Of a stretch of 64,000 nucleotides of DNA, positions 8,301 through 63,603 are shown piece by piece. The position numbers and the translations under genes were made by a program. Below the pieces are notes generated by a model. That model was not told the origin of the DNA, did no database searches, and saw only the letters and a list, made by a program, of their open reading frames with translations. The stretch spans positions 186,001 to 250,000 of the forward strand of contig JAQGEQ010000191.1 of the NCBI GenBank assembly GCA_034620365.1. Reading direction: 5' to 3'. Origin of the DNA: Pegea sp. RAD2-039. Its lineage: Eukaryota; Chordata; Thaliacea; Salpida; Salpidae. Each line of letters starts with the position of its first letter. Position 1 is the first letter of the stretch.

Positions 8301-11300
8301 TTATTTCTGCTTCTTACATACGCGAAATGAATAAAAGTGAAAATGAAATCCTGCTTACATCAAAAACTTCATCAATTTATTTCAATTCTACAAAATATAA
8401 AGATAAAGTCACTTTTAATTTTATATCTAACACCAGTGGTAAGTAATTTAAACTGAATATTTAGAAATTTGAAATCATCATTTTTTGCAGAGATCAAGAT
8501 GTATTTTGCTCAAACAAAAAACATTTATTTGTATTTGGATGAAATCTCAAACTTTCAATCTCAAAAAATTGACTTAAGAGCAAAAATTTCAGTTAATATT
8601 GATGAAAAGAAGATAAATAAAAGTAAAAAATCCACTAAAACCAAACAGATTAAAGTTTTTTAGAAGAAAATTAATTTTTTTTTTCATTTCAGCTGAAGAT
8701 GAAATTATTGCTTTCTTGTATGCGGCTTATTCAACTTTCCAACTTTCATTTTCAAATACAAACTTAGAAGTAAATCCGCTGTTTAGATTTGAAAAGATGT
8801 TAAAAAAAACATATTTTTTGTGAAGAAAAAAGCTGAATAACTTAATTAACATCTTTTGATATTCAGAAATACTTTTGTTTTATTATTTGATAACTTGTAA
8901 ATATTTTGAGTAAAAGTTTTCAGCGTTTAGCTACAAGTGTACTTGAATTAGAACAAAATAATCTCAAAACTTGTTTCTCCTTGATAAACCTTTTAAACTA
9001 ATCAGTCATCATTAAAAGTGAACGTTTCCATTTCTAGTTTGACAAACAAAACTCATTTGATGAATTTCAACTGAAAAGAAAGCACATGAAAAATACTTGG
9101 TCTTACTTTGAAGAAGAACATTTCATGTGGAAACCAATAACTCCAATCATCTCAGCTACAACTTTTACATCCAATCTCGAAGACATTACATCCTCAGTGA
9201 ACTATGAACTTCCATTTGTAAATAAAAATCTCATTTTTATTCATACTTGAAGATAATTGTTATTTTAGAAATAATCTAATCAGTAAACAGAAATAATTTT
9301 TTTTATCCAATTAAATTTGTTTCAAAACTGATCAAAGACAGTTTAATTTATATGATAAAAACTTTTAAAGATTTAGAAATGTAAAGCCAGTAGTGTTAGT
9401 TTGGATCTTATCTCAGAAATTTATATTTTTGAACCTTAAAAACTTCAAAAGTTGGTTTGCTTCATCGGTAGAACCTCTTTATCTAACAAACATCGAGTCA
9501 AAAACATTGTTTAAAAACAAATCTTTCGCTTGGTGGCTCAGAGAGATGCTAGAAGTCCGTTTCTAGCCAGGCACCTTTGTAGTTTGTGCTCCTTAAAATC
9601 ACTTTCAATGAACATCAACTTTTGAAATTCTCAAAACTGGAATTGAAACTGGTTCAACCTCCTTTTTCAGTCAACCAGCAGCTTTGATTCGGATCTAGTT
9701 TCAGTATCCAACTCTCAGATGTGCTCCTTCCTCACATTTGAAGGATCACAACGATCTTGGTCAAGTAGAGGATGTCATTTGATCTCAAACACATCTCAAT
9801 CTTACATCTGTCAATGTAAACACACAACTGACTTCGCTGTACTCCTACTCTTTCGAAAAATGAACTTCTCAGTAAGTTATCTGAATATCGAAGCTTGAAT
9901 TCAACAAATTTATCGCAGTTTTCAAACAATCGTCAGATCCTTTTCTATCTCGGCCTTTTTGGTGAAGTTCTCAGTGTGACGTCACTACTCATCACCATCA
10001 CTGTTTACTGGATGTTGAAAAGGTGGCTTTTTGATGACCTCATCTATTGTCATGACGTCATTTGTAATGAGCAGAAAGTTACCTAATGATCGAATCGTCA
10101 TTCATCTCAACTTGATGACGTCATTGATGATTGCTCATGCGTTGCTATTAACAACACAACTCACATGGTTAGGATCAGAAGCTGGTTGCCATCCGCAAAT
10201 ATGTGACGTCATCGCGTTTTCGCTACACTGTGCACTACTCAGTTCGCTTTGTTGGATGCTGGTGGAAGGTGTCGTGCTATACAAGTGATGACGTCATAAA
10301 GAAGTGACCAGAAGCTTATTTAAAGTTGTTGATTTTGTAGAAAAATTGTAGTTGTGCTGTCACGTGATTTAGATGATGTAAAAAAGATCTACAGTTTTAT
10401 TGGTTGGATTCTTCCTGTTTTTATCTCCATAGCAACCCTCATCATCGTAAAATCGATGCAGTTTAGCTACAGCTCTTCACGGTTAGCTTCAAACAATTTG
10501 TGACGTCATTAATTTGAAAATTGATGTAGGTGCTGGTTGGCTATTGAAAATGGAGTAATCTGGTCGTTTGCTGGTCCAGTAGTTCTTATTTTGATGGTCA
10601 GTTAAGTAGTTGATGATGTAGTTGATGATATAGTCGATGATGTAGTTGATGACGTAGTTGATGATGTAGATGATGATGTAGTTGATGATGTAGTTGATGA
10701 AGTAGTTGATGATGTAATTGATGATGTAGTTGATGATGTAGTTGATGATGTAGTTGATGATGTAGTTGATGATGTAGTTGATGATGTAGATGATGAAGTA
10801 GTTGATGATGTAGTTGATGATGTAGTTGATGATGTAGTCGATGATGTAGTTGATGATGTAGTTGATGAAGTAGTTGATGATGTAGTTGATGATGTAGTTG
10901 ATGATGAAGTTGATGATGTAGATGATGATGTAGTTGATGATGTAGTTGATGAAGTAGTTGATGATGTAGTTGATGATGTAGTTGATGATGTAGTTGATGA
11001 TGTAGTTGATGATGTAGTTGATGATGTAGTTGATGATGTAGTTGATGATGTAGTTGATGATGTAGATGATGATGTAGTTGATGATGTAGTTGATGATGTA
11101 ATTGATGATGTAGTTGATGATGTAGTTGATGATGTAGTTGATGATGTAGTTGATGATGTAGTTGATGATGTAGTTGATGATGTAGTTGATGATGTAGTTG
11201 ATGGTGTAGTTGATGATGTAGTTGATGAAGTAGTTGATGATGTAGTTGATGATGTAGTTGATGATGTAGTTGATGATGTAGATGATGAAGTAGTTGATGA

Positions 11301-12744
11301 TGTAGTTGATGATGTAGTTGATGATGTAGTTGATGATGTAGTTGATGAAGTAGTTGATGATGTAGTTGATGATGTAATTGATGATGTAGTTGATGACGTA
11401 GTTGATGATGTAGTTGATGAAGTAGTTGATGATGTAGTTGATGATGTAGTTGATGAAGTAGTTGATGAAATAAACGATAACAAATTTGTTAAAATCATTT
11501 TTTTTCAGTTCAACTGCTTCATTGTAGTCAAAGTTCTTAGCGTAGTTTTGAAGACCCAAAAAAGGCGACTTGCTTCAGGATTTAATGTTCAAGATGAAAA
11601 TGAAAAAGATGAAATAAAAAGAAATATTTTTACTATTATTCGAGGAATTTCTGTTCTAACACCTCTATTGGGAATCCCTTGGTTATTAGGATTGATGGGT
11701 AACTTCAGTGTTACCGCTACTTATATCTTTGTGGCTTGTAGTTCATTTCAGGTGAATACTAAAGTTTTTTTTCAATTTCATCTCATTTTGATCTTCATCT
11801 TTTAGGGACTTCATATCATGATCGGTTATTTGTTATTAAATCCAGAGATCCGTGCTGCTTGGGGAGAAAACAGAAAGAAAAATGTTTTAAAAATCGACAT
11901 TGAAGTTGTTTATCTTCTTCATCTTGATCTTCATCTTGATCTTCTCTCTTTTATAGAATCCTTTCGAATCTTCAAAGTTACGTCACAATCCTTTTTGTCT
12001 TCGGATCTTTCGTTTTCGATGTTTCAGTCAATTCACCAAACGTAAAGTTCTCGGAGGTTCCGACATCACAGTGGATTCAAGTAACTATCTGCAGGTTACT
12101 ATCCGCGCACTTGATCCCAAATCTCTCAAAGATTAACTTTTGGTATCTTCCAGCAACTGAAGACTGTTTTTTCTGGAATTTCTCGAAGTCGGAAGTTACT
12201 GCAATTAATCACTCAACAAAACGCTATAAACCTTGTTCATCCTTCCACGCCACCTGTAATGACGTCACCGCCGCTATGTGACGTCATCGAGTGCCAAGCT
12301 GATGAACTTCCACAAATTGCACGTCACGTGCTTACAGTGACGTCATCATCAAATGAAGAAGTGCAACAAAGTGTTGATGACGTCATCAGTAGTGGTGACG
12401 TATCAGTGAAAGATGTAGCGTTGATACGCAACGGATCAGCAAGCACTGACGTCATTGAGCGAGTTAAGAAACATGATGACGTCAGAAGGGCTATGCACGC
12501 AGTGACGCATGAAAGACGACGTCGAAAAGATTTAAAGAGAAGAAAATGGAAAGTTGAAAGTCGCCCGATGCCGAAAAGACGAAGGTGATGACGTCATCAC
12601 ATCGAAAGATCTTATTAAATGAAATATGTTTACAGGAGAAGTGGAACGACGTTGTCAAGGAAATGGACGAAGCCAGCGGAAGTTGAAGAAACAAAAAGAC
12701 CGGAAAGCGTTGAATCACGTGATAGTGGAATCAGCTGTAGCTGA
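5327..12744 (+). CDS. Adhesion GPCR with C-type-lectin-like ectodomain
   Basis: A multi-exon adhesion-class receptor (GPCR family B2). Exon 1 (5327-5341) and exon 2 (5409-5526) encode a signal peptide and the first cysteines. Exons at about 6540-6705 and 6770-7310 carry C-type-lectin-like folds (FWIGAHVP; a W/C/GG/L pattern; SSFICEY), and 7655-7893 adds a third half (GACILSDL, AFVCQF). Exons from 7943 to 9217 form a GAIN-like region. The GPS lies at 9670-9870: Cys, Trp, GC, then YICQCKHTTDFAVLL, with HT/T as the predicted cleavage point. The seven-helix part runs from 9920 to 11870, with CWLAIENGVIWSF in loop 2, LTPLLGIPWLLGL in TM6 and SSFQGLHIMIGYLLLNPEIR in TM7. A basic cytoplasmic tail follows (11950-12744), ending SGISCS-stop after an intron at about 12586-12636. 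Poly(A) signal at 12820. All exon phases that I checked agree. The ligand is unknown. Confidence 0.88.
9970..12600. repeat. TGACGTCA palindrome island in the GPCR gene
   Basis: About 13 exact TGACGTCA copies by eye, many extended to TGATGACGTCATCA, in the exons and short introns of the transmembrane and tail region. The intron at 10023-10074 (52 nt) has one exact and one near copy. The donor at about 10287 reads AA|gtgatgacgtcat, so the palindrome abuts the splice site. In the tail exon (12259-12585) copies are read as MTS or DVI. The upstream 4.5 kb of the same gene has only one copy (7380). Confidence 0.9.
10612..11466. repeat. 12-bp minisatellite filling one GPCR intron
   Basis: Roughly 70 tandem copies of GTTGATGATGTA, with variants (GATGAAGTA, GATGACGTA, AGATGATGATGTA). 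The array begins about 12 nt after the donor at 10600 and ends about 40 nt before the acceptor near 11508. Long reading frames across it (Ile-Asn-Tyr or Ser-Thr repeats on the minus strand) are by-products of the 12-nt period. Some units keep GATGACGTA, so the array may derive from the TGATGACGTCA element. Confidence 0.95.
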
Positions 12745-12819
12745 GTTGCTAGGTGTTTGTTGCTAGGTATTTGTTGCTAGCTGTTGTTATCGTTTATTTT
12801 TATTTTTTGACCTTTGTAT

Positions 12820-12825: not shown

Positions 12826-13578
12826 TTAAAAACGACATTTTTTCCGCTATATTTAATTTTCAACTTTTTTATCAGATTCAGATTCAGAAATTTTAGGAGT
12901 TCATTCTTTAATGAGTCTATGAAAGATCAGATAAAATGATTCAGAATCTATCTAAGTTGAAATTTAGTTGTTTTGAAATTTCTAAGCAGTTGAAGATACA
13001 TTAGTAGCTGTTAGTTACTGTTTTAATTTTTTAATTAATTTTTTAATTGAGTTGAAATTTTGTTCATAAGACATGTAACCACTTTTAAAGATTTTTTTAC
13101 TTCTAACATAATGATGAAATTACGATAAATGTACTAAGATGCTTATGACGTCATGATTCAAGTTACAGCATTGATGACGTCATCATTTATGAATATGGTA
13201 ATGAACTGTATTCAAAATAGACCAATCTTAAAATTGGAAGTCAAAATAGTCAGTAAAAAAGTATTTTTTAAAAGCAGAATTTTACTTCTAATTACGTTAC
13301 ATAAACTAAAAATAAAACCTTGCCAAGGTTCAATTTGAAGATTAAAGTCTATTAAAAGATTAAAAAATATTAAACACTACTTCTAAATGTTTTTCTCAAG
13401 CTAAAGATCAAAGTTGAACTTTTATTTGCATTTAAATCTTACTTTTATTGGGGAATTAAACTTTAAGTAAGACTACTTACTTATCATGTTTTTATCATTT
13501 CATCAAATAATTGAACCATTTTTCCAAATCTAAAATTTCATTCACAATTGATAATTTATTTATTTATTTATTTCAATA

Positions 13579-18084: not shown

Positions 18085-19546
18085 ATGGAACTTCGTCAAA
18101 GACGCCGGTTTGACGACGCTGATGACGTGACACCGCAACGTCATCTGCTACTCAATGATAAACCACGAATTGTAACATTCTTTCAGCTTCTCGTTCTCTT
18201 ACTTGGGTTTATCTCGATCATCTTCGGGATTTCAGTTCACCAAAGCCCGCTAAAAACTGTTAAAATCCCGAAGCCACTTCCTCTAGAAAATCGACTTAAA
18301 CCTAATTTTCGTTTAACCGAAGGCAAAAGGTGCTAATGACGTCATCATCGCTTCAATGATGTCAACTACTTCATTACAGCTTAAAGTTTAAAGGAGCTTC
18401 GAGCGTTGCTCAAGACAACGAAGGAAATATGTACAGTGGATTGGCTGATGGAAGAATCATTAAAATCGCGACAGGTCGCGATCATGAAGTTGCAGGTGGA
18501 AGAGTCGATACTATCTTCACATCGCGTTTTCCCGGTGCTTCGATGACGACAGATGCAAAACACGGCTGTCCAATCAGTAGGTAATCACCACAAATGACGT
18601 CATCATAATCAGTGATGTCATCAGGTGTTCGAATAAAAAACAAACAACTTTTTATACTTGATGCTGTCTATGGTTTGTACTCCATTGACGTCATCACTCG
18701 TCAAATGAAATTCTACGTCAAACCTGATGACGTCATTCCGCCACTTCGCGCGCCAACTGACTTTGTTGTCAGTAGCAACGGAAAAAATATTTATTTTTCT
18801 GATTCCAATTTAAAGTTTCCATTTCATTCACCTCTCTACTCTATTATTGGAGGTATGACGTCATCACCGCGTTTTCAATGACGTCATCAAAACTTTTAGG
18901 TTCTTGTACGGGTCGCGTTTTTCATTATGACGTCACAACGCGAAATGTTCATATTTTTCGCGATAAATTATGTCACGTGGGTGGATTGGAGTTAAATGCA
19001 AAAGAGAAGACGCTGGTTGTCGTGGAAACGAGCGCGCAACGCGTTCTCTACGTCGACACGAAGACACGAGTTATTAAATATCAGCTGGCATTAAAAAGTA
19101 CAAAAAAAATTTATTTTTGGAGTTTTTTTGAACTTATTTTTCAGCAATTCCATTTCACGTGAGATTAAATCGAAGAGGAAATTATTGGATCGCTTCTCAA
19201 GTCCATAAACCAAGCTGGTTGCTAAGCAACCAGTTAGTATGTAAATCATTGGCGAGTATTTTACCTTATTCAATGTTTGAGTAAGTTACTAGGTTCAAAA
19301 GGAAAACAAAATTTAATGAAAAATTTTTGTAGGAATCTTTTTTATGTTCGACATTCAGTTGTAGTTGAAGTAACTCCAGTCGGAAAGATTTTACAATCTC
19401 TTCATGATCCTGACAAAATGTTGATTGATCGGTCATCACATGCCAGTGATCTTTCAGATGGAAGAATCGCTCTTGGAAGCTTTACAGGGGATTATTTCGC
19501 CTTATGTGACTATAAAGATCCGCCAGCTTGGATGCTAGATATTTAA
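18085..19546 (+). CDS. APMAP: Adipocyte plasma membrane-associated protein (APMAP)
   Basis: Six exons. Exon 1 (18085-18329) starts MELRQRRRFDDADDV and has a single membrane anchor (FFQLLVLLLGFISIIFGISV), giving type II topology as in human APMAP. Exons 18380-18576, 18625-18852, 18900-about 19094, about 19145-19279 and about 19333-19546 form a strictosidine-synthase-like six-bladed propeller: NMYSGLADGRIIKI, LFILDAVYGLYSID, DFVVSSNGKNIYFSDS, GRVFHYDVTTR, LVVVETSAQRVLYV, LHDPDKM, and a final blade that includes IALGSF. Members have been described as arylesterases; activity here is inferred. An acceptor (TTTCTTTAAG) lies 10 nt before the ATG. Three introns of 44-50 nt each carry two TGACGTCA-like copies. 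The coding X-box-like sequence GGTTGCTAAGCAACC (about 19219) is read as LLSN. Confidence 0.92.
18120..18960. repeat. TGACGTCA palindrome island in APMAP
   Basis: Seven exact copies plus near copies (GATGACGTGAC, GATGTCATCAG) across the first four exons and three short introns. The intron at 18853-18899 (47 nt) has two exact copies 16 nt apart. The intron at 18577-18624 ends with the element (GTGATGTCATCAG), so the palindrome supplies the acceptor. The last two exons have none. Confidence 0.9.
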
Positions 19547-21334
19547 TTATTTTTTTATTCTTTTATGAAAATAATTAGTAGTTAAAAGGAATTAGGTTCT
19601 TAGTTTATCGTTTAGTTGAAAATTTATTAGTTCTTCTCAAACATTCTATTATTCATTAATTTTTCCTCATTAATCAAAAGTTGTTTAAAATGTTTTTAAA
19701 CGAAAATTTTTAATTTTAAAATATTGAAGTTTGAAGTTTTAAAAAAATATTTTCTGATTAAAAAGACTCTTAAAAAATATATTCTAAGTTTCATTAAAAG
19801 TTACGATTTTTAATTTATTATTTGAACATATTTGAAATTTGAACTGTTTTGTAACTTTTTTAGTTTTAGATAAAACTATTTTTAAAGTGATTGAAATATA
19901 TTTTTTCTAACACTATAAAACACTTTTGAAGGCTTTAATAATTTAATTAAAAAGGGTATTTTCATCTAATAATCAACTTGTATAAAAGCTAATCTCAAAA
20001 AAGTTAGCAAAGTTTTATAACTTTAAAAAACTTTATTTTTCAAAAATTTAGCTGAAATATAATTCGATTCCGCTAGGCGGCGCTCTACACGTTTTGTTAA
20101 ACTCATGAAACTGTTGTTTGATTCTAAACATCTCTTTTGTCAACTTTTTACAAATTTGCTACGATAAAAAAGTCTGCAAAATTGTGAAGTCAAGTTCAAG
20201 CGAATGTTTGCTAGAGGAAAAAAGAAACTTAAACAAACATAAAACTGTGATCTTCTTGTCACGTTCAAATCAGTGTATTTCAGTTCACCAATTTCTACTT
20301 TGAAAATAATTTAAATATAAAATGTTTTGAAACTTTTGAAAAAAGTTTATTTCAATTTTTGTGGAAATATTGCATTTTGAAATAGTAGAAAATAATTATA
20401 TAAGTTTGGAATAAAAAGCCTATTTATTGAACAAACAGAAACACTTAAGTATTTGTTTAATATTTTAACTCTAAAATTTAACAAGTTCACAGTCATTAAT
20501 TTTGAAATATTCAACTAAAAGTTGATAAATCATTGAGCTCAAGGTATCACATATTGATGTTATCTTTTGTAACGTCGATTTTCAAATAGGTAAAAATAAT
20601 TTTAAAACAAAATAACTAACAAAATCTCTAATTGTTTTTATTTGACTTAAATTTATTGGTGACGTCAGCAGATAAAGTTTCTTAATTGTTTACTCACTAC
20701 AGACAAAGCAAATTTGCTAAATGGGGAACAGAACTAGGTCGTGACCTAGAATAGACTTTGTTTCTCACTTTTATTATAGATAAAATTATTTCCAAAATGA
20801 TATATTTTGCTGACCAGAAAGTTTTAAACAATTTTTGTTTATACTTACAACAATTAAATAACTTCTGTTCAACTTTTAGAAATAATTTTAGTGTGTTTAA
20901 GTTTAATTTGCAATTTTTTTGTAATATTTGTTAATAGCCAAAATAAAATACTTGAAGTGTTTAAACTTTTATTCACTAAAATAATTTAGAAGGTACAACA
21001 TAAATAATTTATATATTATGCAATTTTAAAATAAGCAATTATATTTTCAAACTTAAAAATGATTTCAAATTTGGCGAAAAAAATGGATAATAAGTTGAAA
21101 GAATCAAGCACAAGAATGGATTTAGGTTAAATATCGATCAGAAAAATTGATAAATATCAAAATAAATTCAAAACATTTTAATCAAGTTGAAAATCTTTTA
21201 AAAACTCATTAATGATTAAAAACTATAAAATCTTCAACAGTAAATGAATGAATTTTATTTTAAATTTTTATATTAGTTTTTTATTCTAATCTCATAGACA
21301 CAATTGCTTTAAATTAAAAGTGAGACAAAATCAG
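19547..21334. other. Intergenic APMAP / zinc-finger gene
   Basis: AT-rich, convergent 3' ends. It contains an isolated CTCF-like site (20067-20085) and one TGACGTCA copy (20661). The open frame at 20118-20303 has no domain. Confidence 0.5.
20067..20085 (+). promoter_or_regulatory. CTCF-like motif, forward
   Basis: TTCCGCTAGGCGGCGCTCT matches the known bilaterian CTCF consensus (CCASYAGRKGGCRSY type) at most informative positions and is an isolated GC-rich island in AT-rich DNA. Binding is inference. Confidence 0.35.
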
Positions 21335-27542: not shown

Positions 27543-28838
27543 ATGCCTTCAAAAAAGAAGAAGTATAATTCTAGATTTCCACCAGTAAGTTGTCAATTCT
27601 AAAATTTCTTATTTCTCATAATATTCATCCCAGGCAAGAATCAAGAAGATCATGCAGACTGATGAGGAGATTGGAAAGGTTGCAGCAGCAGTCCCTGTTT
27701 TAATTTGTATCTTTTTTATTTTTGAGCTTCTGTCAAAACTATGTTTGCTTCAAATTTATTCCTTTTGATTGTAGTTCAAATTCCTTAGCAATTTTTTACA
27801 GCTAAATGTGTTGAGATGTTTTTAATTGGAATATTAAACCAAACAGAGAATGTAACAAATGCAAGAAAAGCAAAAACTATGTCTACATCACATCTGTGAG
27901 TAATTTTCTGATCTTCTTTCTGTAGGAGTCAAACGATGATCTTGTTTACAGGAAGGAATGTATCATGAAGCAAGAAAATTATGATTTTCTTAAAGATTTA
28001 GTTGTTAATGAACCTGATTGTGAACCCTTATCAGATGACTCTACTTCAAGTAATAAAGAAAAAATTTCTAGAAAAAGGTGAAAAAAAGAAGCATTTAATG
28101 ACGTCATCATCTGGCGTCATCAAATTCTCTCATTTTAGCCTTTTACTGATCTTACAAATGATCCTTATTTACAGATCATTATCTATGACGTCATCAACTG
28201 CTTCTAGCGAAAAAATTGTTCCAAAAAAAGTTCAAACTGTCGCTCAAGTGACCCTTGCAAGGGTAAGTAGTTGTGACGTCATCACTCAAATAACGTCATC
28301 ATCTCACTGACGTCATCATTGATGTTTTTAGCAAGCTGCTCCTCCATACAATCGCTTAAAAGCAAAACGACACAAAAGTTCTTCTTGTATTGCGTCATCA
28401 CCATCTGTGACGTCATCAACAACTGCTGGCTATTCAGGTGGCTCGGGATCTTTTGAGGAGTAAGCTAAATGATTGGTTGTCGCACTGAATGTTGATGATG
28501 ACGTCATAAATTCTCTAAACAGAAGTCATTGGTCAAGTGTGACGTCATCATCTACAAATGAAGATGAAGACGTCACAAGTGATGACGTATTACGAGTCAC
28601 TGAATCTCCAAAGCAATCACGTCATAATCGCTTGATGACGTCACAAGAAGGCGCTATCGATCTTACTGTCGCCAAATCCACCACCTCTCAACCAACGTCA
28701 TCAGAGACGACACGATCTGATGATGCCATCAACAGCAACACTGTCTCCACACAACCGATGACGTCACCTCTGCCAAACCTTCACCCGCTTATCATCAGAA
28801 AATTAGTTGATGATGAAGATGATGATTATGACGTATGA
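27543..28838 (+). CDS. DRAP1: DRAP1, NC2-alpha transcriptional repressor
   Basis: Starts [20 protein letters not shown], almost identical to human DRAP1. Exons: 27543-27584; about 27634-27708; about 27803-27896; about 27952-28078; about 28179-28261; about 28332-28459; about 28523-28838. The H2A-type histone fold runs through [39 protein letters not shown], then [17 protein letters not shown]. The protein pairs with DR1 (NC2-beta) to block TFIIA/TFIIB binding to TBP. The C-terminal half is low-complexity and ends [10 protein letters not shown], like the acidic human end. This tail is largely built from in-frame TGACGTCA copies (MTSS, VTSS, DDVI), an unusual lineage-specific expansion, while the histone fold has none. 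Three 3' introns also carry the palindromes. Confidence 0.93.
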
Positions 28839-31019: not shown

Positions 31020-34000
31020 ATGTCTGCAAACCCAAAGGTTGGTATTTAAAGATTGATTTCAATTAAATATTAAACTTTTAAACAAACTTATTAAATAAAT
31101 ATTCAAAAAATATTTGATGGTAATGATAATTTCAAAAAGTTTTCATAATAATTTTAATTAAAGATAAATTTTCATAAGTAATAAATGATGTTAATAGTTT
31201 TTTATTTAGTTAATCCAGTTTTAATTGTTTTAAATTGAAAATTTCTAATTTTAATAATAAAACAAATATTGAAATAGCTTATATCTATAGAATATGATGA
31301 TTAAGCAAATATTGACCAATTAACAACTTTTTTCAATGTTTACAGTGTACAAACTCAAATAGTTGGAAGAATTCAACAAAATGGTTTAAAGCAGCAAAAA
31401 CTGTTGGAATATTTAGTGGTTCAGTGGCAGTGATTGGTTGTGGATGGTATTTATATCAAACAAAAGTAAATAAAACTTGATAGAAATGAAAAGAAATCAA
31501 TTTTTAAATTCAATTTTTTAGGTCAGAAGTTGTTTCAAAGTTGGACCAGTACCAGCCCCAGCCTGGACACAAAATCCAATACCATCAAGAGAGTCACAGA
31601 TGAAAGCTTTGAAGACAACATCAGAGTTTGATCTGTTAGTCATTGGAGGAGGAGCAACTGGATGCGGTGTAGCTCTTGATGCTGTTTCAAGAGGCTTGAA
31701 AGTTGCTTTAGTTGAAAAATATGACTTCTCTTCAGGAACTAGTAGCCGAAGCACAAAACTTATTCATGGTGGAGTTAGGTACGTCATCGCTCTATGACGT
31801 CATCAACTACTGACGTCATCAAACGCAGGTATCTTCAGAAAGCGATTATGTCTTTGGATTGGGAACAATTTAATCTGGTTCAAGAAGCTTTGAGTGAAAG
31901 AGCTAACTTACTTAATATTGCTCCTCACTTGTCGTTTCCTCTCCCAATCATGTTACCAGTTTACGAGTAAGTCTGCAAATGATCCACTCTTTCTTGTGAC
32001 CAGTTTTGTGGTCTGCAGGTGGTGGCAGGTGCCCTACTTTTGGGCTGGTATCAAAATGTATGACCAGGTCTCTGGTTCAAAGAAGCTCAAGTCAAGTTTT
32101 TTGCTCTCAAAGACAAGTGCTTTGGAAAAGTTTCCAATGTTGAAAGCTGATAAATTAAAAGCTGCAATTGTTTATTACGATGGTTAGTTGATGATGACGT
32201 CATGAGGGCTTAACTTCCTGCTTTCATCATAATTTTGATTTGAAATTATTTCAAAATCTTTGAATAATTTTCTCGAAAATAAAAGATAAAAAGTTTCACA
32301 AAGTTCGTTTCCGATCCTCATCTTCTTCTGATCTTTCAATTTTTATCTCATCTTCATCTAATTATCTTCTTAGGATCTCACAACGACTCCCGGATGAATC
32401 TCAGCATCGCAATCACAGCAGCGCGTCAAGGAGCTTGTGTCGCCAACTACTGCGAAGTAGTCGACTTGTTGCGTGGCAACGGAGACCTTCTCACAGGAGC
32501 TAAACTAGTAGATAGACAAACAGGTGAGTTGATGACGTCATCACATCACAACTTCAATGACGTCATCACAGGTGAGCAGTTTGAAGTGAAAGCAAAAGCG
32601 GTTGTGAACGCGACGGGACCTTTTACTGACGTCATCAGAAAAATGGATAATCAGAAAGTCGATGAAATTTGTCAACCAAGCGCTGGCGTACATGTGGTAT
32701 TGCCTGGTTACTACAGGTGACGTCATCATTGCGTCGATGACGTCATCTCATCGATTTGTATCTCAACAGCCCTGATGCAATGGGATTATTAGATCCTTCA
32801 ACTTCTGATGGTAGAGTGATCTTCTTCTTGCCTTGGCAAGGTCTCACTATCGCTGGTACTACTGATAGTCCTTGTGACGTCACATCGAAGCCAGCACCGC
32901 GAGAGTGTGACGTCACTTTCATCTTACAAGAGATTCGTAATTACCTCAATCCGGAAGTTAGAGGTAACGATTTCGTGACGTCATCGTCATCTAATTATGA
33001 CATCATCTTCAGTACGACGAGGAGATGTACAATCTGCTTGGAGCGGAATTCGGCCTTTAGTAACAAATCCAAACGCGCGCGATACACAATCGATTTCACG
33101 AAATCATGTTGTTGAAGTCAGCCCAAGTCACCTCATCACTATAGCAGGTTCGTTGGTGACGTCATCATCGCGTTCGTGACGTCATCATCATATAGGTGGT
33201 AAATGGACAACTTATCGTAAAATGGCTGAAGATTGTGTTGAAAGCGCGATTAAAATTTGTGGTTTAAAAGCGTCCAATGGGAGCACGACTTTAGGAATGA
33301 GATTAGAAGGAGGTCATAAATGGACTCCGAATCATTTCATCAAACTTGCACAAACCTATGGTGAGTTGTGACGTCATCAGACGTATTTGTGACGTCATCA
33401 TTTCAGGTCTCGATGCTTCCGTGGCCAAACATTTATCTGAGACTTATGGCGATCGTGCTGATGACGTAGCTAAGTTAGCATCGGTGACAGGAAAAAGACA
33501 TCCAATTGTAGGACGGAGACTAGCTGAAGACTTTCCTTACATCGAAGCTGAAGTCAGATACGCGATGAAGGAGTACGCGCGAAGCGTTTGTGACGTATTA
33601 GCGCTTCGTACAAGACTTGCGTTTCTGAGTGTTGATGCTGCTGAAGAAAGTCTTCCAAGGGTTCTGAAGATAATGAGTAAAGAGTTGAATTGGGATGAGA
33701 AGAGGATAAATGAAGAAAGGGAACAAGCTCTTCATATGATTCATTATGAAATGGGCAAAAAGGTCTTTAATTTGTTTAATGAAATTACTGGATGCTGATT
33801 GGTTGTTTAATAGATTCATCAAGTTCAACCGAATTCTATTCATCTCACTCCAGTTGATGTAGAAAGATGTACAAAGAAGTTTCGCGCTGTTGATCGAGAA
33901 AATAAAGGATTTGTTACCCGTGTTGATATCGAACACTTGATGAAGGTTGGTTGCTAAGTGGTTGTAGATGGTTGCTAAGTGGTTGTAGATGGTTGCTAAG

Positions 34001-47539: not shown

Positions 47540-50048
47540 ATGGTGGAAGTTTACTGTATTTGTCGAACTTCTGATATTGATCGATTTATGATCATGTGTG
47601 ACAGTTGTGAAGAGTGGTAAGTCTATTTAAATAAATTAGTAGCTTCTGACTTAGTAAAAGATTGTTTTTTTAGTCTTAATTTTTAATATAAACTTTTTTA
47701 TTATAATTCTAATTAATTTTTTTTCATTAAAACATTTTTTTTAACTTTTGTATCTTATAAGTATATTATAAAATATTATTAATTTTCATTATTAATTCTT
47801 AAATTTTTTTTATTTAATGTATGACTGCATTACAAATTAAAATTATTTAATTAAACAAATTAAATAGCTCTTCAACCTAATAATATTGCAGATAAATAAT
47901 GAAAAGTTCTCAAGTATCACACTTTTAAAATATAATTTTATTCCCAAGTTTATAAAATTACTGAAAGCCATTTATTCATAATAAAAATTCTAATTTTATT
48001 TGTAATTTTCTAATTTTGATGTCAACTCACCAGGTTTCATGGAGATTGTATTAACATTTCTGAAAGAGCTGCTCGTCACATCAAGTTCTTTTATTGTAAA
48101 ACTTGTCGTCGAAAGAATCCAACTTTGAAGATCAAATACAGAAAATCAAAAAGGCAGAAAGAAGAATTAGAAAGAAAAAAGCAGAAAATAAAAAATCGTA
48201 AACTTCATGCTGGTAGGTGGTTGCCAAGAAGCTGTTGGTTGATTGCTAAGCGGCTTACTTATCTGGTAACTTAATGACAAACTTTTATTTTTAGAGAGCT
48301 CTTCATCTTTGAAATATGGTGATAAATCTCATAGAGAAGTGAAAAAGGAGTCCCTTTTTTTATCTTCTACTCAACCGGCTGATTTTAAATCCAGAAACAA
48401 TTTGAATTTGAGCAAAAAAACTGAATCAAAAAAAATCAAAAGAGCCTTGGTGATTTCAGATGAAGAGGAAATTAACGGTCTTTCATCTCATCTTCTATGT
48501 TTATCTTATAATCCTTATCTTCTGATCTTCATCTTCTGATCTTCATTTAAGATTTTCCTCTTACGATTTTTTCTAGTTCTTCAACCCGAATATATCAAAA
48601 CTGAAGTGATGACGTCACAACCACCATCTGTGCTATCAACAACGATAAAACGCGAAGCTTTCGATTTCATTGAAAAAAGTGACGTCATCAGCAGCAGTCA
48701 GATGCGACAAAACTTACCCGATGATGACCTCATCAAACCAAAACCACCGAAGCGACAAGTAGGTTGATGACGTCATCAACAACATTCCACTACGATTTCA
48801 TCAATTACAGAAACGCGAAAAACCGAAGAAAAAGTTTAAGCACGTGGGCACGATGACGTCACAACCGCGAGAAGGAAGCAATCAGTGTTCGGGTTATGCG
48901 TGTGTTCGCGCGGCGCGCTCTAACTCGAAGTAATATTGATGACGTCATCAGCAGTATCACATACCTTCTTTGTTTATAGATATTGCAGCGAGGCGTGTGG
49001 TCGACGAAGAGCACGTGACCGGTTGACACAGATACTGCCTTCGCGTATTAATGATTGGCATAATACAACTACAGTTTCTGATGAAATTGGAAGAGAAGAT
49101 TTAGAAAGAACTCGGTTGAGAATGGAAGTAGAAAAAGTTGAATTGAAAAGACTTGGTTGGTTGTTGATGTTGATTTAAGCTGTTGATGAACGTAGAGATT
49201 TGTTTCAGAGGAAAAGTTCCAGCGATTAGAAGAGATAATTTGGGCAGCAAAACGGATCCCAAAGTTAGAAGAGCAGAGATCAGATGAAGATGAATGGGAT
49301 GTTGAAGATCTTACTCTTCGTTGTGTAATTTGTGGTCAATCAATAACTTTAAAATCTGCTATCAAACATATGGATAGGTATTTGATGACGTCATCATCGC
49401 TGTTATCACCTCATCACTATGTTGTAGATGTTTCAACAAAATCGAAGCGATGACGTCATTCGGATCTGTTTATCCGACAAAGATTGAAGGATCAAAAAGA
49501 TTATTTTGTGATGAATTCAACGAACAGCAACAAACTTACTGCAAACGATTACAGGTGAAAGTTGTACATCATCTACTGTTTCAATGACGTCATCATGACG
49601 TCATCATGTAGGTTTTATGTCCGGAGCATACAAAAGAAATGAAGATTAGTGATGATGAGATCTGTGGGTGTCCTCTTGATTGCCAGAAAGTCTATTTAAA
49701 AGATTTCGATTTAAATGATTCAAATAATTTTTGCCGAATTCCAAGAAAGAAATGTAATCGACATTTCAAGTGAGTTGTGACGTCATCAGCTGTTGTGACG
49801 TCATCTTCTTCTTCTTTTCTAGATGGGAAACACTTTTTCGAGCTGAAGTTGATCTTCAACGAATTCGTCAATGGTTAAAAATTGATGAAATATTTGATGA
49901 TGATCGTCGAATCAGGAGCGCGATGTCGAACCGCGCCGGAGTAATTTCACTTCTTCTACATCAACGAATCCGACATGATGAGTCTTGTAATGATATGAGG
50001 ACTCGACCTACCATCAGCAAGAAACCTGCTTATCGTTTAATGATTTGA
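47540..50048 (+). CDS. CXXC1: CXXC1/CFP1-type Set1-complex subunit without a CXXC finger
   Basis: Exon 1 (47540-47616) and exon 2 (48034-48212) encode the PHD finger: VYCICRTSDIDRFMIMCDSCEEW, FHGDCINIS, IKFFYCKTCR. A basic stretch and a disordered linker (48295-48840) follow, then the whole C-terminal CFP1 domain: NQCSGYACVRAARSNSKYC, LTQILPSRINDW, LRCVICGQSI, MDRCFNKIEAMTSFGSVYPT, RLFCDEFNEQQQTYCKRLQV, EICGCPLD, KCNRHFKWETLFRAEVDLQR, SNRAGVISLLLHQRI. Human CXXC1 has the CpG-binding CXXC zinc finger between these parts; here no CGxCxxC cluster is found in any frame that I could read. The protein should recruit Set1/COMPASS for H3K4 methylation via PHD binding to H3K4me3. Acceptor CTCATTTAG is 19 nt before the ATG. 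3' introns are palindrome-rich. Confidence 0.93.
48600..49810. repeat. TGACGTCA palindrome island in CXXC1
   Basis: Eleven exact copies by eye. Introns near 48760, 48930, 49380, 49555-49610 (two copies) and 49770-49822 (two copies) carry them; coding copies read MTS or DVI. The PHD-encoding part and its long AT-rich intron have none. Confidence 0.9.
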
Positions 50049-56538: not shown

Positions 56539-59500
56539 ATGTGTTCTCCAAAAGTAGTTTTCCTGATCGGGATTACTCTGTTTTCCTTCGCTGTAGTTTC
56601 AGTTTCAGCTGATGAAAATTATTATGATATTTTAGGTATTTCTAAAGATGCTACAGTTAAAGAAATTAGAAAGGCATTTAAAAAAATTGCTTTAAAAATG
56701 CATCCTGATAAAAACACTGTAAGTTTCTGTTGTTTATTTTTTTTAATTCAGTGTTTATAAATCAAAGTTAAAAATGTTTTTCCTTTTAAGGATCACGAAA
56801 ATATTTATTTAAAAAAAAATACATTTTCATATTTTGTTTTGATGTAATTGATTTTTAATTCTAAACTTGAAATCTTTTATTTAATTTGATTCTTTAAAAT
56901 TGGATAAAATAAATTAATAAATTTGAATATAGAGAAAATGAAAAAAAAATATTTGGTGTTTTTGTTTTGAAAATGTAAACAAATTTTTTAGTTTTTTTTA
57001 CTGAATTTTTCTCTCAAAAAAACAAAATTCAAATTTGTCTTTTTCATTTCTGAAATTTTTATCTTTTTCATCTAAATGTAAAAATTGAAAAAAGGATTTT
57101 ATCAATTAAACTTTCTTCTGTGTTTCTCCTAATCGACTCTTGCAATCATCAGATTAAATAACTTCTTCCTCATCTGATTTTAAACTTCCTAAAAATTTTT
57201 TATAAATTTTTGTAATAATTTGAAAACTCTGTTCTTGATTTCTTCTAATCTTCTTCTAATCTTTTCCAGGGAGATCCAGAAGCTCATGAGAAGTTTGTTC
57301 GGATCAACGGGATCTACGAAGTCCTTAAAGATGAAGAAACGCGCGAAAAGTATGACAAATATGGAGAAGAGGGTCTCAAAGAAGGATTTAGAGGAAGATA
57401 CGAAAGTTACAGTTACTATAGAGACGAATTCGGAATCTATGACGATGATCCGGAAGTAATTACTCTTGATGGAGGAGATTTTGGTAAAAAGATCAACTTT
57501 CAGAGATCAATCTCTTAACTTGTTGTTTTCAGAGGCGGCCATCAATTCAGGGGAAGCTTGGTTCATCAACTTCTACTCTCCACGCTGTTCACATTGTCAT
57601 GATCTTGCTCCAACTGTAAGTTTCTTTCAATTTCTTGCTTCAATTTCATCTTTTTTCGATTAGTGGCGTAAATTTGCTGAAGAAATGAACGGCGTTGTCA
57701 ACATTGGCGCTGTTAATTGCTATGACAACCGATGGATTTGTCAAGAAAACGGAATATACAGTTATCCATCTCTGATCTTCTTCCTCAAAGGCCAGCGAGT
57801 TAGTTTCCATGACAACAAGCCGCATGACAACTGTTTCCATGACAACAAGCTGCATGACCACTGTTTCCATGACAACAAGCTGCATGACAACAAGCTGCAT
57901 GAGAACTGTTTCTATGGCAACAAGCTGCATAAAAACTGTTTCTATGGCAACAAGCTGCATAAAAACTGTTTCTATGGTAACAAACCGCATGACAACTGTT
58001 TCCATGGCAACAAACCGCATGAAAACTGTTTCTATGGCGATTGTTTTATGTTAACTTCTTTGCATGTTTTTGCGTGAATCAGTTTGTTTTTAATTCACTT
58101 TTTTCAGTGGAAGCAATTTGCTGCAAATATTTCTGGCTTTGTACACGTGGCTGCTGTTGAATGTTCAGGTTGATAAGCAAATTTTCAACTGATTTTGTCA
58201 ACTTTTATTTGATTTTTGTGCAGGCAGAAACAGAATTTTGTGTTTGAAGAATCGTATTCATTACTTTCCTAACCTGATTCTCTATCAATCTGGTCATGAG
58301 GTTGATTAGCTCTCAAATAGTCCTCATCAGATTTTCATCAGATCATTTGCTGATGAAAGCTATTTATTGTCTGTTTGTTCTCTTTCATCATTTGTTTTTT
58401 TTTGCATGAAATTTGTTGCTGCTTTTAATTTGCAAAATATTTTGTTTACTGCAATTGAAATCAAACAAAAAAGAAATTTTTCGATTTGGTGAAACTTGCA
58501 TGACTAGCTTTATGATTTATAACCATAGCAACCATTCTTACCATCATAGCAACTATTCTTACCATCATAGCAACTATTCTTACCACCATAGCAACCATTC
58601 TTACCACCATAGCGACTATTCTTACCACCATAGCGACTATTCTTACCACCATAGCGACTATTCTTACCACCATAGCGACTATTCTTACCATCATAGCAAC
58701 CATTCATACCACCATAGCAACCATTCATACCCCCATAACAACTATTCTTACCACCATAGCAATTATCATTAACATTTTACAGCCAATCAAATTCAGTTCT
58801 GAACGCACCAAGAAACAACTGATCAATTTTGTGATGAGTCATGTCACTGTACACGTAAGTGACGTCATCAATTATCACAATCACACACGCAAAGTGATGA
58901 TCATGTAATTGCAGCTCTTTGAAATGTGGGATAAAAATTGGAAAGATGAAATGTCGAAAGGAAAACTCGAATTACCCTGGATTGTTTCATTCTGCCTCAG
59001 TGACGATTCTGATGACGACACAGATGACGATTCTGATGACGACACAGATGACGTCACTGATTGCCCATCTGATATAAGTCAGCGTAAATTATCTGGACTA
59101 ATGGTATGTACGATGATGACGTCATCAGTTCACGATTAATGATGACGTCATTACAGAATGCAGTTGCTAACGTTGCAACTGTGGATTGTGACGACTCACC
59201 GAAGCTGTGTGCTCGTGCGGCTGTGACGTCATCAGGATTTCACTATTTTGCAGCTGGGGATTTCCCTGAGAAGAAAGGAGAACGATTAAAAGCGATAGAA
59301 GCGCGCGAAGTGGCTGATTACTTTATGAATCACTTGATGCCTTCAATTAAATATTTCTCTATCGATAAATTCAAGGTACTGATGACGTCATGTACTGATG
59401 ATGTCATGTACTGATGACGTCATTTTTCTACAGACTCTTGTCAACCGGCGCGCGATGTTAGTTTTTATGCAAATGACGTCATCAGAAGTTGATAAAACTG

Positions 59501-61405
59501 AACCTCAATTAAAGAAGCTTCCAGGGTTGCTAGGCAAAGAGGTTTGTGTGACGTCATTATCGATGCAGTGACGTCATCACTCAATAATAGGGAATTGAAG
59601 TTGTGAAACTGAAATGTGATGATTGGTGTTCACGAGAATTGCTGATGACGTCAGATGCGACAATTTTGTTTCGAGGCGGAGGAATTCGTGATTTTGAAGT
59701 TTTTCACGGTTTGTTGATGACGTCATTGATTTGTGATACTGATGACGTCACTAACAGGACGATTGAAGACTTCTGAATTATCAGCATTTGCTGTTGAGAG
59801 TCGAGATAGTCGAGTGGCAACACTTCGTCCTTCTGACTTTGATGGTCGTCAACTTGTTGATGATAATTCACCGATTTTCGTCGATTTCTTCGCTCCAGTG
59901 AGCACCTGATGACGTCACAAAACTCTGATGACGTCATATTTTCTCTACAGTGGTGTCCTCCATGTAAAGCACTTCTTCCTGAGCTTCGAAAAGTTTCAGT
60001 TTTGGTTTCTGATGTCAAATTTGCAACTATGGATTGCGTGGCTTTCTCGGAGTTCTGCGGAAACGTGAGAAGCTTAAGACTCTAAAGACTCCTTCCACTT
60101 CTTATACAAAGATCTCGAAACTTCTGAAAAATAAAAATTTTTAATCTAAAAACCAATTTCAAATTTTGAGCTTTTTTCAAATTCTTCGAATCTTCATCTT
60201 TTCTCATCAGATCCTAAAATGTCTTTTTCAGTTTGGAATCGAGTCTTATCCTTCAACTTACCTTTTTAACGGATCAAGTCTTACTCCTTTCAACGGTCAT
60301 CATCATCATCAAGCAATTCGGACTTTCATTCAGGTGCTCCACTTCATATACAACTATCATGTCATCATCGCGTATTTTAGGACCAAATCAACCCGCCTTA
60401 CATCAAACTGACCGCCAAAACCCTTCAAAGTCTGGTCCATGACCGACAACCCGGACTTACATGGGTTGTGGACTTTTATGCAAATTGGTGTGGACCTTGT
60501 CGTGCCCTTCTTCCAGAATGGCGTAAAATGGCAAAAGTCAGTTTGTGGTAGATGACATTACAACAAATGATGACGTCATCACTAGATGCTAGATGGAGTA
60601 GTGAAAATAGGAGCGATTGATTGTGCTGCAAATGATGAAGATCACGCGGCCTGTCGACGTCAACTAGTCGACGCTTTTCCAGAAATCCGAATTTTTCCAT
60701 CAAAAAAATCCCCAACTTCGAAACCGTTGTACATTCCATTCAACGGGCATCAACGTCACGCTCATCATCTCGCCTCCTGGGTGCTCCAGTAAGTCTCTGC
60801 TGATGATGTAATTACAATACTGACGTCATCCATCGACAGGCACGTATCTGATGAAGTGACAACGATGCAGAAACGCGATTTCGATCGTGGCGTGGTGAAG
60901 CACCCTGAGGCGTGGGTCATAGACTTTTACGCATCCTGGTGTGGCCCCTGCCGTGCTTTCATGCCCAAATTTCAACTGGTTGCTATGGTGAGTGATCATG
61001 TGATGATGACGTCATTTAATGACGTCATAATTTCGAGTAGAAATTGAAGAATTTAGGAGTGAAATTTGGGAAGATTGATTGTCAGCAGCTTCCTTCTGTC
61101 TGCAGTGTGTCTTCAGTTCGAGCTTACCCTACTCTCATCTTTTTCCCTCCTGGTGACGTCACTTTTAAACAAACTAATCGACGGGTCATCGATAGCCAGG
61201 TGCTGTTGATGACGTCATCATTACACGTCATCAATGTTGATATTTTTTGTGGTTTCAGGAACCTGATGTAATAATTGAAGCTGTCAAAAAGTTCTTCGCT
61301 CAATTCAAACCCAAAAAGGTGATAAAGTCCTTCGTGTGCTAATGACGTCATCAATTTAGGTGTTTATGACGTCACTAACTTGCTTTTTTTCAGGATGAAT
61401 TATAA
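56539..61405 (+). CDS. DNAJC10: DNAJC10/ERdj5, ER co-chaperone disulphide reductase
   Basis: ER-lumenal protein that reduces disulphides in misfolded clients for ER-associated degradation, working with BiP. From ATG 56539: signal peptide ([20 protein letters not shown]), J domain with HPD (56635-56718 and exon at about 57270), [12 protein letters not shown], then Trx1 with CSHC ([16 protein letters not shown], to 57615). Trx1 continues in either exon A (57664-57798) or exons B1+B2 (58108-58168, 58224-58300), both joining in phase 0 to 58783-58854. Two redox-inactive Trx-like domains follow (58915-59900), the first with an acidic DDSDDDTDD insert. Then come Trx2 (FFAP|WCPPC, about 59951), Trx3 (WCGPC, about 60490; human has CHPC) and Trx4 (WCGPC, about 60940). 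The C-terminus is KKDEL, split by an intron, with DEL-stop alone at 61394-61405. Confidence 0.93.
57803..58045. repeat. 30-bp X-box minisatellite between alternative exons
   Basis: About eight units of CAACAAGCTGCATGAMAACTGTTTCYATGR. Unit junctions read GTTTCCATGGCAAC or GTTTCTATGGCAAC, the palindromic RFX X-box form. The array starts about 5 nt after the donor of exon A (CGA|gttag) and fills most of the intron up to exon B1. Open frames on both strands are repeat artefacts. Confidence 0.9.
58515..58768. repeat. 21-bp minisatellite in DNAJC10 intron
   Basis: About twelve copies of CATAGCAACCATTCTTACCAC with A/G and ACC/ATC variants, ending about 14 nt before the acceptor at 58782. The minus-strand unit contains GGTTGCTATGG. 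The HSNYSYH-type frames through it are not genes. Confidence 0.93.
58860..61370. repeat. TGACGTCA palindrome island in DNAJC10
   Basis: The densest island: about 23 exact copies by eye, in nearly every intron from 58855 onward. Introns near 59104-59156, 59530-59590, 59710-59757, 59900-59950, 60990-61040 and 61319-61393 each carry two; the one near 59378-59430 has two exact and one decayed copy. The first 2.3 kb of the gene has none. Confidence 0.92.
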
Positions 61406-61898
61406 GCAATTGTGGATCAATTAGATGTTTATTTATTCGATATTTACACAATTTTGAAGAATTTTTTTTCATTTTTGACGATTTATTCGTAAAATCGTTA
61501 AAAATTCAGCATTCAAAATTTCTTCTTTTATATTATATACTTTTTTCTGTTTTCAACAAAACTGACTTAAAAGAAGCAACAAGTTTATATTTCAGATATT
61601 TTTGAAGCAACATTTAAATTTCACTTTTCTCTTCTATTAAAACTGAATTTTCAAAAACGTTATTTTCATTTTTGAAATAATTTAAATATTCGCATATTGA
61701 CAAATAAAACGTGAATACTTTCATTTCATCAATTTATTGAAAAATTGTCAATTAGGTTAATTTGCAAAAGTTATTCAAAAACATTTCAAAAAAAAAACAG
61801 GAAGTATCTAGAAGACTTCCTTGACAATTCATAACAGACTTCTTCTAATCGTGAAGTTCAGGAAGTTTGTTCGATTTGAAATCTAATGTTTTAATTAA
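61406..61898. other. Convergent spacer DNAJC10/TMEM237
   Basis: AT-rich 3' region of both genes, with a plus-strand AATAAA at about 61703 and a minus-strand AATAAA (TTTATT) near 61732. No other feature. Confidence 0.55.
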
Positions 61899-63603
61899 TC
61901 AGTTTGTAATCAAACTTATCTTCGATTCATCGCCATAAATATCTACAAAAAATTTTTATTGAAATATAAAAAGATGAAAAATTTGAAACTAACTTTTGAT
62001 GGTGTTGTTACCAATAGGATCAGATGATAATAGCAACCAACCACAAACTATAAATGACATTCTAAGTGTGTTTAAAACTTGCCAAGTTTGATAATTTGCT
62101 TGTGGGTCTTCATTTAAGTAATCTGATGTAAGTGTGGAGTTTGTAGTAGAAGGTTCAGGGTTCAAACTAAAAGGACTATTTGTGCCAATCCATACATCAA
62201 AACCAATCATACAATAATTAGTAATTAAAGCACCAAAATAAGCTGAAAAACGAAAATTGAAAAAAGAAAAAAGTTGAACAAAGTTCAATCACCAAGTGTC
62301 ATCCAAGCTTTTGCATCTACTTTACATAATCTTGAGAAGATCTTCAATCCGAAATGATTTAAATCAAACCGATCTAAGGAAGAAATGAAACAGAAAATGA
62401 GAGAAATTTGAAATAGGAGTTGAACAGGAAGAGCCAAATCTTCATATTGTTCGAAAAAATTGGAGTTTCCTTTTGAATGTAGAACCATTGTTGTCACCAC
62501 CTGATCACAATCAAATATTATGACCTAGCAACCAGTCACCTAGCAACCAACCTGCCAAACAGCTAAACCAGCCAACAATGAATGAATAAAGAATGTAAAT
62601 TTATCAGTGAAAGCCAAAAGATTAAGAGCAATCTGAGAAGTTCTCTCTTTAGATGAAGATGGGAGATCATGCCATCTGGAAGCACCTCTATTAGTTTGTT
62701 CCAGTTGTTTCGATTTATACCAATCAGTTGTTCGACCTTTAAATCCAGCTGTTGAAAAAAATATCGAAAATATTAAAAGAAATTATTAGAAAAATAAACA
62801 AAAAACAATCAGCAACCAGCTATCAACAAATCAGCAACCAGCTATCAACAAATCAGCAACCAGCTATCAACAAATCAGCAACCAGCTATCAACCAATCAG
62901 CAACCAGCTATCAACCAATCAGCAACCAACTATCAACCAATCAGCAACCAATTATCAACTAATCAGCAACCAGCTATCAACCAATCAGCAACCAACTATC
63001 AACCAATCAGCAACCAGCTATCAACCAATCAGCAACCAGCTATCGACTAATCATCTAACTTGTGGTTTGAACAAATATTTTGTCTTCTTTTCGACTCGCA
63101 GCTTCAGGAAGCCGTTGAGTGGTTCTAACTTCCCGTGGCTTCTTTGACGTCATGATGACGTCATCACCAGCCATTGGCAAGAGTGCAAACGAGTTCTCGA
63201 TGACATCATGACTCTCTACAGCTCTCGCACTCGCATCCGGATTTCTTGCAGTTCTACAACAGCACTGATGACGTCAACACTTCTGATGACGTCAAACTTA
63301 CTTCCGCTTACGACGTCGATGTCTTGCTGATGCTTCTGGATTCATGGATTTTTGATCTTCATCTTCTGATTGTTGATGATTTGATGCTTTATGTCGATCT
63401 CTTCTTCTTTTTTCTCGTCTGGAACTTTCTACTTCTTTTATTTCACTTAAATCTCCTAAATTTGAAGTCTGAAGCTGAAGTGGTTCCAACCTGGAATTTT
63501 CAGATTCAATTTTTCTACTTTTGATTAATTTTTTTTACTTTTGAGTTGAAGTGAAAACTGGGAGTGATGGAAGAGGTCTTCGAGGACTTTCTGGATTAGT
63601 CAT
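61899..63603 (-). CDS. TMEM237: TMEM237, ciliary transition-zone membrane protein
   Basis: From ATG 63603 (MTNPESPRRPLPSLP; human has RPLPPVP). The next exon (about 63515-63302) is Lys/Arg-rich (RREKRRRDRHK), like the human N-terminal half. Exons between 63264 and 63070 are not fully resolved; the one near 63140-63053 reads KEDKIFVQTT, as human GKVFVEK. The membrane part is clear: exon about 62750-62555 gives FIHSLLAGLAVWQ (human FSHGFLAGCAVW); exon about 62509-62290 gives QYEDLALPVQLLFQISLI and ISSLDRFDLNHF (human QYKTLAYPFQSLLYLLLA, ISAFDRIDF). The exon down to 61989 gives NYQTWQVLNTLRMSFIVCGWLL, with the last at about 61935-61899. Four membrane helices are expected. It acts at the ciliary transition zone (MKS/JBTS module), so this animal has cilia. 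A 37-nt intron at 63265-63301 is composed almost wholly of two palindromes. Confidence 0.85.
62808..63052. repeat. 22-bp minisatellite in a TMEM237 intron
   Basis: About eleven copies of CAACCAGCTATCAACAAATCAG. In the sense of the gene the unit is GCTGGTTGCTGATTGGTTGATA, close to the GPD2 unit GGTTGCTAAGTGGTTGTAGAT. The array starts about 12 nt after the donor near 63053. The frame at 62752-63147 is an artefact. Confidence 0.93.
63140..63300. repeat. TGACGTCA palindrome island in TMEM237
   Basis: Four exact copies plus TGACATCATG within 160 bp, in the 5' half of the gene. Two of them form almost the whole of a 37-nt intron. Confidence 0.85.

Follow-up and report, generated by a model that had tools for sequence, protein, structure and literature searches.

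Exact copies of the cAMP response element palindrome lie in introns and coding sequence of a subset of genes in the salp Pegea sp.

Palindrome copies and the genes that carry them

We analysed a 64-kb stretch of the genome of Pegea sp. RAD2-039 (contig JAQGEQ010000191.1, positions 186,001 to 250,000; hereafter the window), which contains 20 predicted genes and many exact copies of the 8-bp palindrome TGACGTCA, the textbook cAMP response element (CRE). Exact counting gave 91 copies, and 12 copies of the 14-nt palindrome TGATGACGTCATCA, while 100 dinucleotide shuffles of the window held a mean of 0.50 and a maximum of 3 copies of TGACGTCA. The runners-up among 8-mer palindromes are A/T-only words with at most 43 copies each, and the commonest other palindrome containing G or C is CAAATTTG, with 11. 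The original prediction, which estimated about 90 copies and equated the core with a CRE/ATF site, was correct on both points. The range that it gave, 9970..63300, does hold copies, but others lie outside it, at 478 and 7383.

Predicted genes contain 86 of the 91 copies (33 in coding sequence, 49 in introns of at most 75 nt and 4 in longer introns), two more lie within 300 nt downstream of genes and three elsewhere. This bears out the earlier statement that almost all copies are genic. The sites it listed as intergenic (13146, 13175 and 20661) fall outside our gene models as well: two copies at 13146..13182, some 400 bp beyond the gene that ends at 12744, and a single copy at 20660..20667, which begins at 20660 in our numbering.

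Seven genes of the window are rich in the palindrome, which we define as at least four copies. Six are on the forward strand. The first (6489..12744), adhesion-GPCR-like by eye, holds 14 copies, one at 7383 and the others in clusters at 9977-10508 and 12260-12596; inside its model lies a 12-bp array of about 72 copies of GTAGTTGATGAT (10606-11468), which is open in several frames and whose coding call is doubtful. A gene with a weak N-terminal match to strictosidine synthase (18085..19546) carries 7 copies at 18337-18935, the predicted gene at 27543..28838 carries 9 at 28099-28766, and a gene that is CXXC1-like by eye (47540..50048), with a CpG_bind_C match below the Pfam cut-off, carries 11 at 48610-49803. 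The DNAJC10 (ERdj5)-type gene (56539..61405) has 23 copies, all within 58860-61374, and at least one in 11 of its 15 hand-mapped introns. On the reverse strand, the predicted gene at 61899..63603 has 4 copies at 63145-63294.

The sixth forward-strand gene encodes a glycerol-3-phosphate dehydrogenase (FAD), whose hand-mapped coding span (31522..33797) gives an unbroken protein homologous to 3da1 once its eight introns are removed. Twelve of its 15 copies are intronic and three are coding. At least one copy is present in seven of the eight introns, and two copies are present in five: those of 50 nt (31779..31828), 48 nt (32524..32571), 53 nt (32717..32769, where the first copy overlaps the 5' splice site), 48 nt (33148..33195) and 46 nt (33361..33406). 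Six of the eight are GT-AG introns of 46-53 nt with a copy.

Other features of the window include a LINE-type reverse transcriptase remnant, read by eye from the translation (54477-55020, reverse strand), and a PTPA match among the window proteins. An Rfam scan of the window gave no match at the gathering score, and ARAGORN, run on the window with the bacterial code, also gave no match. Six of the seven rich genes lie on the forward strand and 10 of the 13 others on the reverse strand, although these numbers are small.

Distribution across the genome and within genes

Across the whole assembly (G000; 105.7 Mb in 387 contigs) TGACGTCA occurs 27,792 times compared with 969 for its reversed word ACTGCAGT, far from the chance-level count that would have spoken against the original prediction. 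The corresponding numbers were 11,048 for ATGACGTCAT and 121 for its reversed control, and 1,972 for the 14-mer TGATGACGTCATCA and 0 for its control. The excess is genome-wide but patchy. The window holds 1,422 copies per Mb compared with a genome mean of 263 per Mb, and the first 100 ATGACGTCAT matches listed for contig C1 are split into 36 spread over 1.97 Mb and 64 crowded into the 149 kb that follow.

Copies were assigned to sequence classes in the window and 23 further loci (L005-L027), amounting to 24 sources with 294 kb, 60 predicted genes and 212 copies; L001-L004 and L028-L042 were excluded. Five of these sources (L023-L027) were motif-dense by choice and the remaining 18 loci are arbitrary 10-kb pieces. 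The gene finder was built for this analysis and trained on a few genes and on 27 hand-mapped introns, 22 of them with the motif, from two window genes and part of a third gene in L026. Codons overlapping the motif received a neutral score. The finder called an intron at 59215-59253, where homology indicates coding sequence; some models take minisatellites as coding (10606-11468 and 33948-35351), and the model at 31020-36122 has stops at splice junctions.

Introns of at most 75 nt hold 87 copies (4.87 per kb), coding sequence 77 (0.90 per kb), longer introns 30 (0.78 per kb), the 300 nt downstream of genes 12 (0.77 per kb), the 300 nt upstream a single copy (0.065 per kb) and the remaining DNA 5 (0.041 per kb); class borders shift by one copy between two counts, giving 12 or 11 downstream and 5 or 6 elsewhere. 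Outside genes the copies are roughly 100 times sparser than in short introns, and genic and intergenic DNA are not equal in this respect. With a lone upstream copy, promoter-type use does not fit, in line with the earlier doubt about ordinary enhancer use. Within the 18 arbitrary pieces all 16 copies, 10 of them in a single gene, are in predicted genes and none is in the other 104 kb.

Gene-level comparisons used the 44 of the 60 genes that fall within size limits. Twelve of them are rich, and 178 of the 194 genic copies lie in these twelve. Coding density is 2.28 per kb in the rich genes and 0.10 in the other 32, and short-intron density is 10.65 and 0.70 per kb, respectively. This contrast arises partly by construction, because rich genes are defined by their copies, but the correlation between coding and intron densities across the 44 genes (rho 0.73) does not. 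The earlier suggestion of an intron-associated element is not supported in its pure form, since 77 of 212 copies are coding and the two densities rise together. Along the rich genes, copies per decile are 1, 7, 6, 15, 18, 37, 28, 15, 19 and 32, with a sparse first third.

The peak in introns of at most 75 nt raises the possibility of an RNA-level element, in which UGACGUCA in the pre-mRNA would help very short introns to splice, through a stem formed by two copies, or would bind an RNA-binding protein. Two copies are present in 22 of 342 short introns and one in 43, and the intron copies show a sense-strand asymmetry that is described below. However, 277 short introns have no copy, and coding copies are not drawn to splice sites (median distance 55 nt compared with 52 for random positions; 13% compared with 22% within 20 nt). 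On the latter evidence an exonic splicing enhancer near splice sites was also rejected. The effect is specific to the word, as other palindromes that are not A/T-only are not enriched alike: TCACGTGA, a second palindrome with an ACGT core, has 26 sites in the 294 kb and a mild genic enrichment (22 compared with 1.47 expected, on both strands of a gene set from which rich genes were excluded). Furthermore, the coding copies have mirror-symmetric flanks without the covariation that pairing would produce, and RNA self-pairing was set aside for this reason. We consider an RNA role improbable, and less likely than the recombination and mutational alternatives discussed below.

Origin, flanks and surroundings of the copies

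The coding copies occupy both of the frames that are free of a stop, with 43 read as xxT GAC GTC A and 34 as xTG ACG TCA, while no copy is read with TGA as a codon. Among Thr-Ser pairs, 35 of 90 use the codons ACG TCA in rich genes, compared with 2 of 105 in other genes. TGACGTCA is a DNA word and not a protein or repeat feature.

Six coding copies, three per gene, were aligned to solved homologues and none is accompanied by a motif-sized gap. In the dehydrogenase, the copy at 32627..32634 aligns without gaps to 3da1, and of the two copies in the Asp-Val frame (32875 and 32908, spanning 32875..32915) the first has a single-residue gap beside it. The three copies of the DNAJC10-type gene (59224, 59474 and 59646, spanning 59224..59653) were compared with 3apo, and a single-residue gap lies near the second. 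Thus these six words replace homologous residues in place. Beyond the motif, a flank similar to that of a copy at least 90 bp away was seen for 5 of the 212 copies and not for the other 207. Since shared flanks are few and the aligned copies lack motif-sized gaps, a separate origin by substitution seems likely for most copies. Tandem multiplication is seen at 59376-59423 of the window and at 6334-6424 of L026, and 6 of 42 close neighbour pairs resemble tandem duplicates. A comparison of alleles within the assembly found that the DNAJC10-type stretch matched only itself and a 46-bp piece elsewhere.

The original prediction had offered a selfish inserted palindrome, and the high copy number and local tandem multiplication would suit such an element or an introner-like one. 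An insertion would be expected to bring common sequence beyond the motif, which 207 of 212 copies lack, and added length, which all six aligned coding copies lack, and the 104 kb outside genes in the arbitrary pieces are devoid of copies. We regard insertion as highly improbable, and a dispersed repeat or introner was set aside because of the unique flanks.

The copies are also exact. Beside the 212 exact copies, one-mismatch words exceed their reversed controls by about 42 sites (121 compared with 79). CpG deamination products, TGATGTCA/TGACATCA, account for 30 of this excess and TGACGTAA/TTACGTCA for 11; the remaining gains and losses nearly cancel. Steady gain and decay of neutral copies should, we infer, leave one-mismatch forms roughly as numerous as exact ones. 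A functionless drive, in which site-specific mutation or conversion in transcribed DNA turns near-matches into TGACGTCA, could account for this scarcity, for the separate origins and unique flanks, for the in-place replacement in coding sequence and for the confinement to predicted genes. To our knowledge, no mutation or conversion process acts on TGACGTCA in this way. A drive would also leave the half-site flanks of bZIP type, described next, as a coincidence, and the strong differences from gene to gene speak against it. It seems to us an unlikely explanation.

The sequence around the copies shows the preference RTGACGTCAY, with a purine (A or G) favoured ahead of the core and a pyrimidine (T or C) behind it, followed by TGA/TCA. 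In coding copies the left and right preferences mirror each other (p 0.93, 0.46 and 0.25 at positions 1-3). The two sides vary independently, as flank position 1 is self-complementary in 31 of 77 coding copies (34.7 expected) and in 96 of 194 genic copies (101.9 expected). Therefore the 14-nt palindrome, put forward earlier as an extension of the core, is not a unit. Mirrored but independent flanks in coding copies fit a DNA-binding dimer with two half-sites, whereas pairing in RNA or in a cruciform should produce covariation.

Spacing between copies was examined for periodicity. Helical phasing was set aside, as R was 0.029 at 10.5 bp, compared with 0.044 expected (0.098 at 10 bp and 0.01 at 10.4 bp). 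R is raised at 147-180 bp (0.118 to 0.151, compared with 0.044), which may reflect the shape of the distance distribution, and we do not claim nucleosome spacing.

CpG is preserved locally around the copies. With motifs and tandem arrays masked, the observed/expected ratio of CpG in coding sequence falls with distance from a copy, from 1.18 in the nearest 30 bp to 0.95-1.02 up to 250 bp and 0.61-0.74 farther away. The intron values are 1.03, 0.77 and 0.84 up to 120 bp, followed by 0.51-0.75. GC and third-position GC are slightly raised near copies. At the gene level, coding CpG differs between rich and other genes (0.91 compared with 0.64, p 0.00016), and coding GC differs slightly (0.386 compared with 0.369, p 0.024), but third-position GC shows no significant difference (p 0.14). 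Local hypomethylation would be the simplest reading of the raised CpG, although causality between CpG and motif may run either way because the motif itself holds a CpG. The genome contains 11 cytosine-5 methylase matches. Eight, possibly borne by mobile elements, are in long open frames (603-873 aa) on contigs C57, C249, C32, C52 and C262, and two of these form an inverted pair on C57.

Minisatellites, counted after arrays with the motif inside their unit were removed, lie close to the copies. Of 21 minisatellites, 16 lie within 1 kb of at least two copies; 9.3 were expected, and 1 of 500 placements reached the observed number. Seven of 12 rich genes hold or adjoin a minisatellite compared with 5 of 48 others. 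The link is weaker at 500 bp (11 of 21, 7.0 expected, 23 of 500 placements). Minisatellites of GTTGCTA/TAGCAAC type occur in or beside rich genes in the window (29212-29459, 33948-35351, 58522-58766, and in a looser form 62806-63053), in L026 (3225-3348) and in L025 (8778-9144), and the GTTGCTA word has a higher density in short introns and coding sequence than in other DNA.

These surroundings bear on a recombination role. Intragenic CREs bound by ATF/CREB dimers might open chromatin and attract double-strand breaks nearby, as at fission-yeast ade6-M26, and biased repair would then raise GC and CpG and breed minisatellites. A recombination role would account for the GC and CpG raised within about 250 bp, the minisatellites and the domain-scale clustering on contig C1. 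There is a precedent in M26 itself, a CRE-like site (ATGACGT) in the ade6 open reading frame which acts through Atf1-Pcr1, opens chromatin, depends on the promoter of the gene and has its breaks beside the site rather than on it (PMC9775316). In Pegea, too, the word ATGACGT lies inside predicted genes, a position like that of M26, which acts from within a gene. The same review describes a full TGACGTCA in the ade6 reading frame as neither bound by Atf1-Pcr1 nor promoting recombination (PMC9775316); here there are thousands of copies. Third-position GC hardly differs at the gene level, which tells against this role. For biased gene conversion, an option in the original prediction, the evidence is divided: GC and CpG are raised near copies, but third-position GC hardly differs between rich and other genes, and such conversion may or may not have contributed. 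Hotspot words are, in addition, expected to be lost through conversion and not to multiply. We judge a hotspot function to be unlikely, about level with a functionless drive.

Intragenic CRE arrays as a candidate role

We tentatively favour the reading that the copies form intragenic CRE arrays to which an ATF/CREB-class bZIP dimer binds, that selection maintains them and that they mark open gene bodies. TGACGTCA with its RTGACGTCAY preference, which we take to match the preferences of bZIP proteins, would be a full CRE that a dimer with dyad symmetry recognises in double-stranded DNA, an ATF/CREB-class bZIP protein being the most likely candidate. Point substitution, together with some tandem duplication on a local scale, would have built up the sites in certain genes, across introns, coding sequence and 3' ends, and selection would keep them exact. 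Binding in the germline, among other cells, may open short stretches of the gene body and leave them unmethylated, and the arrays may act as intragenic regulatory sites, whether as enhancers, internal promoters or contact anchors. Candidate readers are encoded in the genome, as 12 bZIP matches were typed by eye as JUN, FOS, CREB (L030), CREB3, C/EBP, HLF, CNC and ATF6/XBP1, with one unclear.

Several observations weigh against this proposal. The mirror symmetry of the flanks is confined to coding copies: in introns the flanks are strand-asymmetric (p <0.0001 at position 1). Sense TGACGTCATCA also outnumbers TGATGACGTCA, 67 to 34 (p 0.0013). T is the commonest base in the short introns of rich genes (T 0.383, A 0.285, C 0.168, G 0.164), which may explain part of this asymmetry, and a strand-specific role may also contribute. 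Regulatory CREs are expected near promoters, but the copies here are scarce both upstream of genes and in the first third of rich genes. None of the 12 bZIP matches has a clear basic region of ATF2/ATF7 type, although an exon-wise search can miss such regions. The trace of methylation expected in TpG/CpA was non-significant (1.17 in rich compared with 1.22 in other genes, p 0.20), and a word that bears a CpG may simply survive better in CpG-rich DNA. Finally, the rich genes appear functionally unrelated when judged by eye, and a common function for them was set aside on that basis.

Comparison with known systems indicates what is shared and what differs. In mammals, CREs are concentrated 1-150 bp upstream of start sites, and no such bias is found in Ciona (PMC1796609). 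Because of the Ciona result we did not take a promoter-proximal position as defining a CRE. That source also gives TGATGTCA as the CpG-decay variant of the CRE, and it is the main one-mismatch word here too; unlike the promoter-proximal mammalian sites, the Pegea copies fill introns and coding sequence, with 1 of 212 upstream. Ctenophore loop anchors (CTEP1/CTEP2) likewise involve a CpG-bearing motif, unmethylated at anchors, and loop enhancers that are 69% intronic, but there the motif is GC-rich and read by C2H2 proteins (PMC12221973).

The copies can also be set beside DNA signals of germline genes. Periodic An/Tn clusters (PATC) are abundant in introns of C. elegans germline genes and consist of A/T runs with a period of about 10 bp. 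Phased A/T clusters are a different word from the exact palindrome described here, which lacks 10.5-bp phasing. In C. elegans, PATC is non-coding DNA able to prevent transgene silencing (PMC7725773). Among the top-ranked titles and abstract beginnings of the open-access literature, we found no report of dense CRE arrays running through introns and coding sequence. The palindrome itself is a known site; its deployment here would be new.

A more far-reaching version of the CRE array proposal, possible but doubtful, is a gene-body identity code. A bZIP dimer would read dense CRE arrays in particular genes and chromosome domains, shielding gene bodies from methylation or silencing or steering recombination, and many codons would be shaped by a signal at the DNA level. 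Should the sites prove to be bound and selected, substitutions would have written a transcription-factor site into many introns and codons of seemingly unrelated genes. Coding sequence would then be constrained by DNA-level signals to an extreme degree, in a case open to direct testing, which may also provide a lead to gene-body marking or recombination placement in a compact genome.

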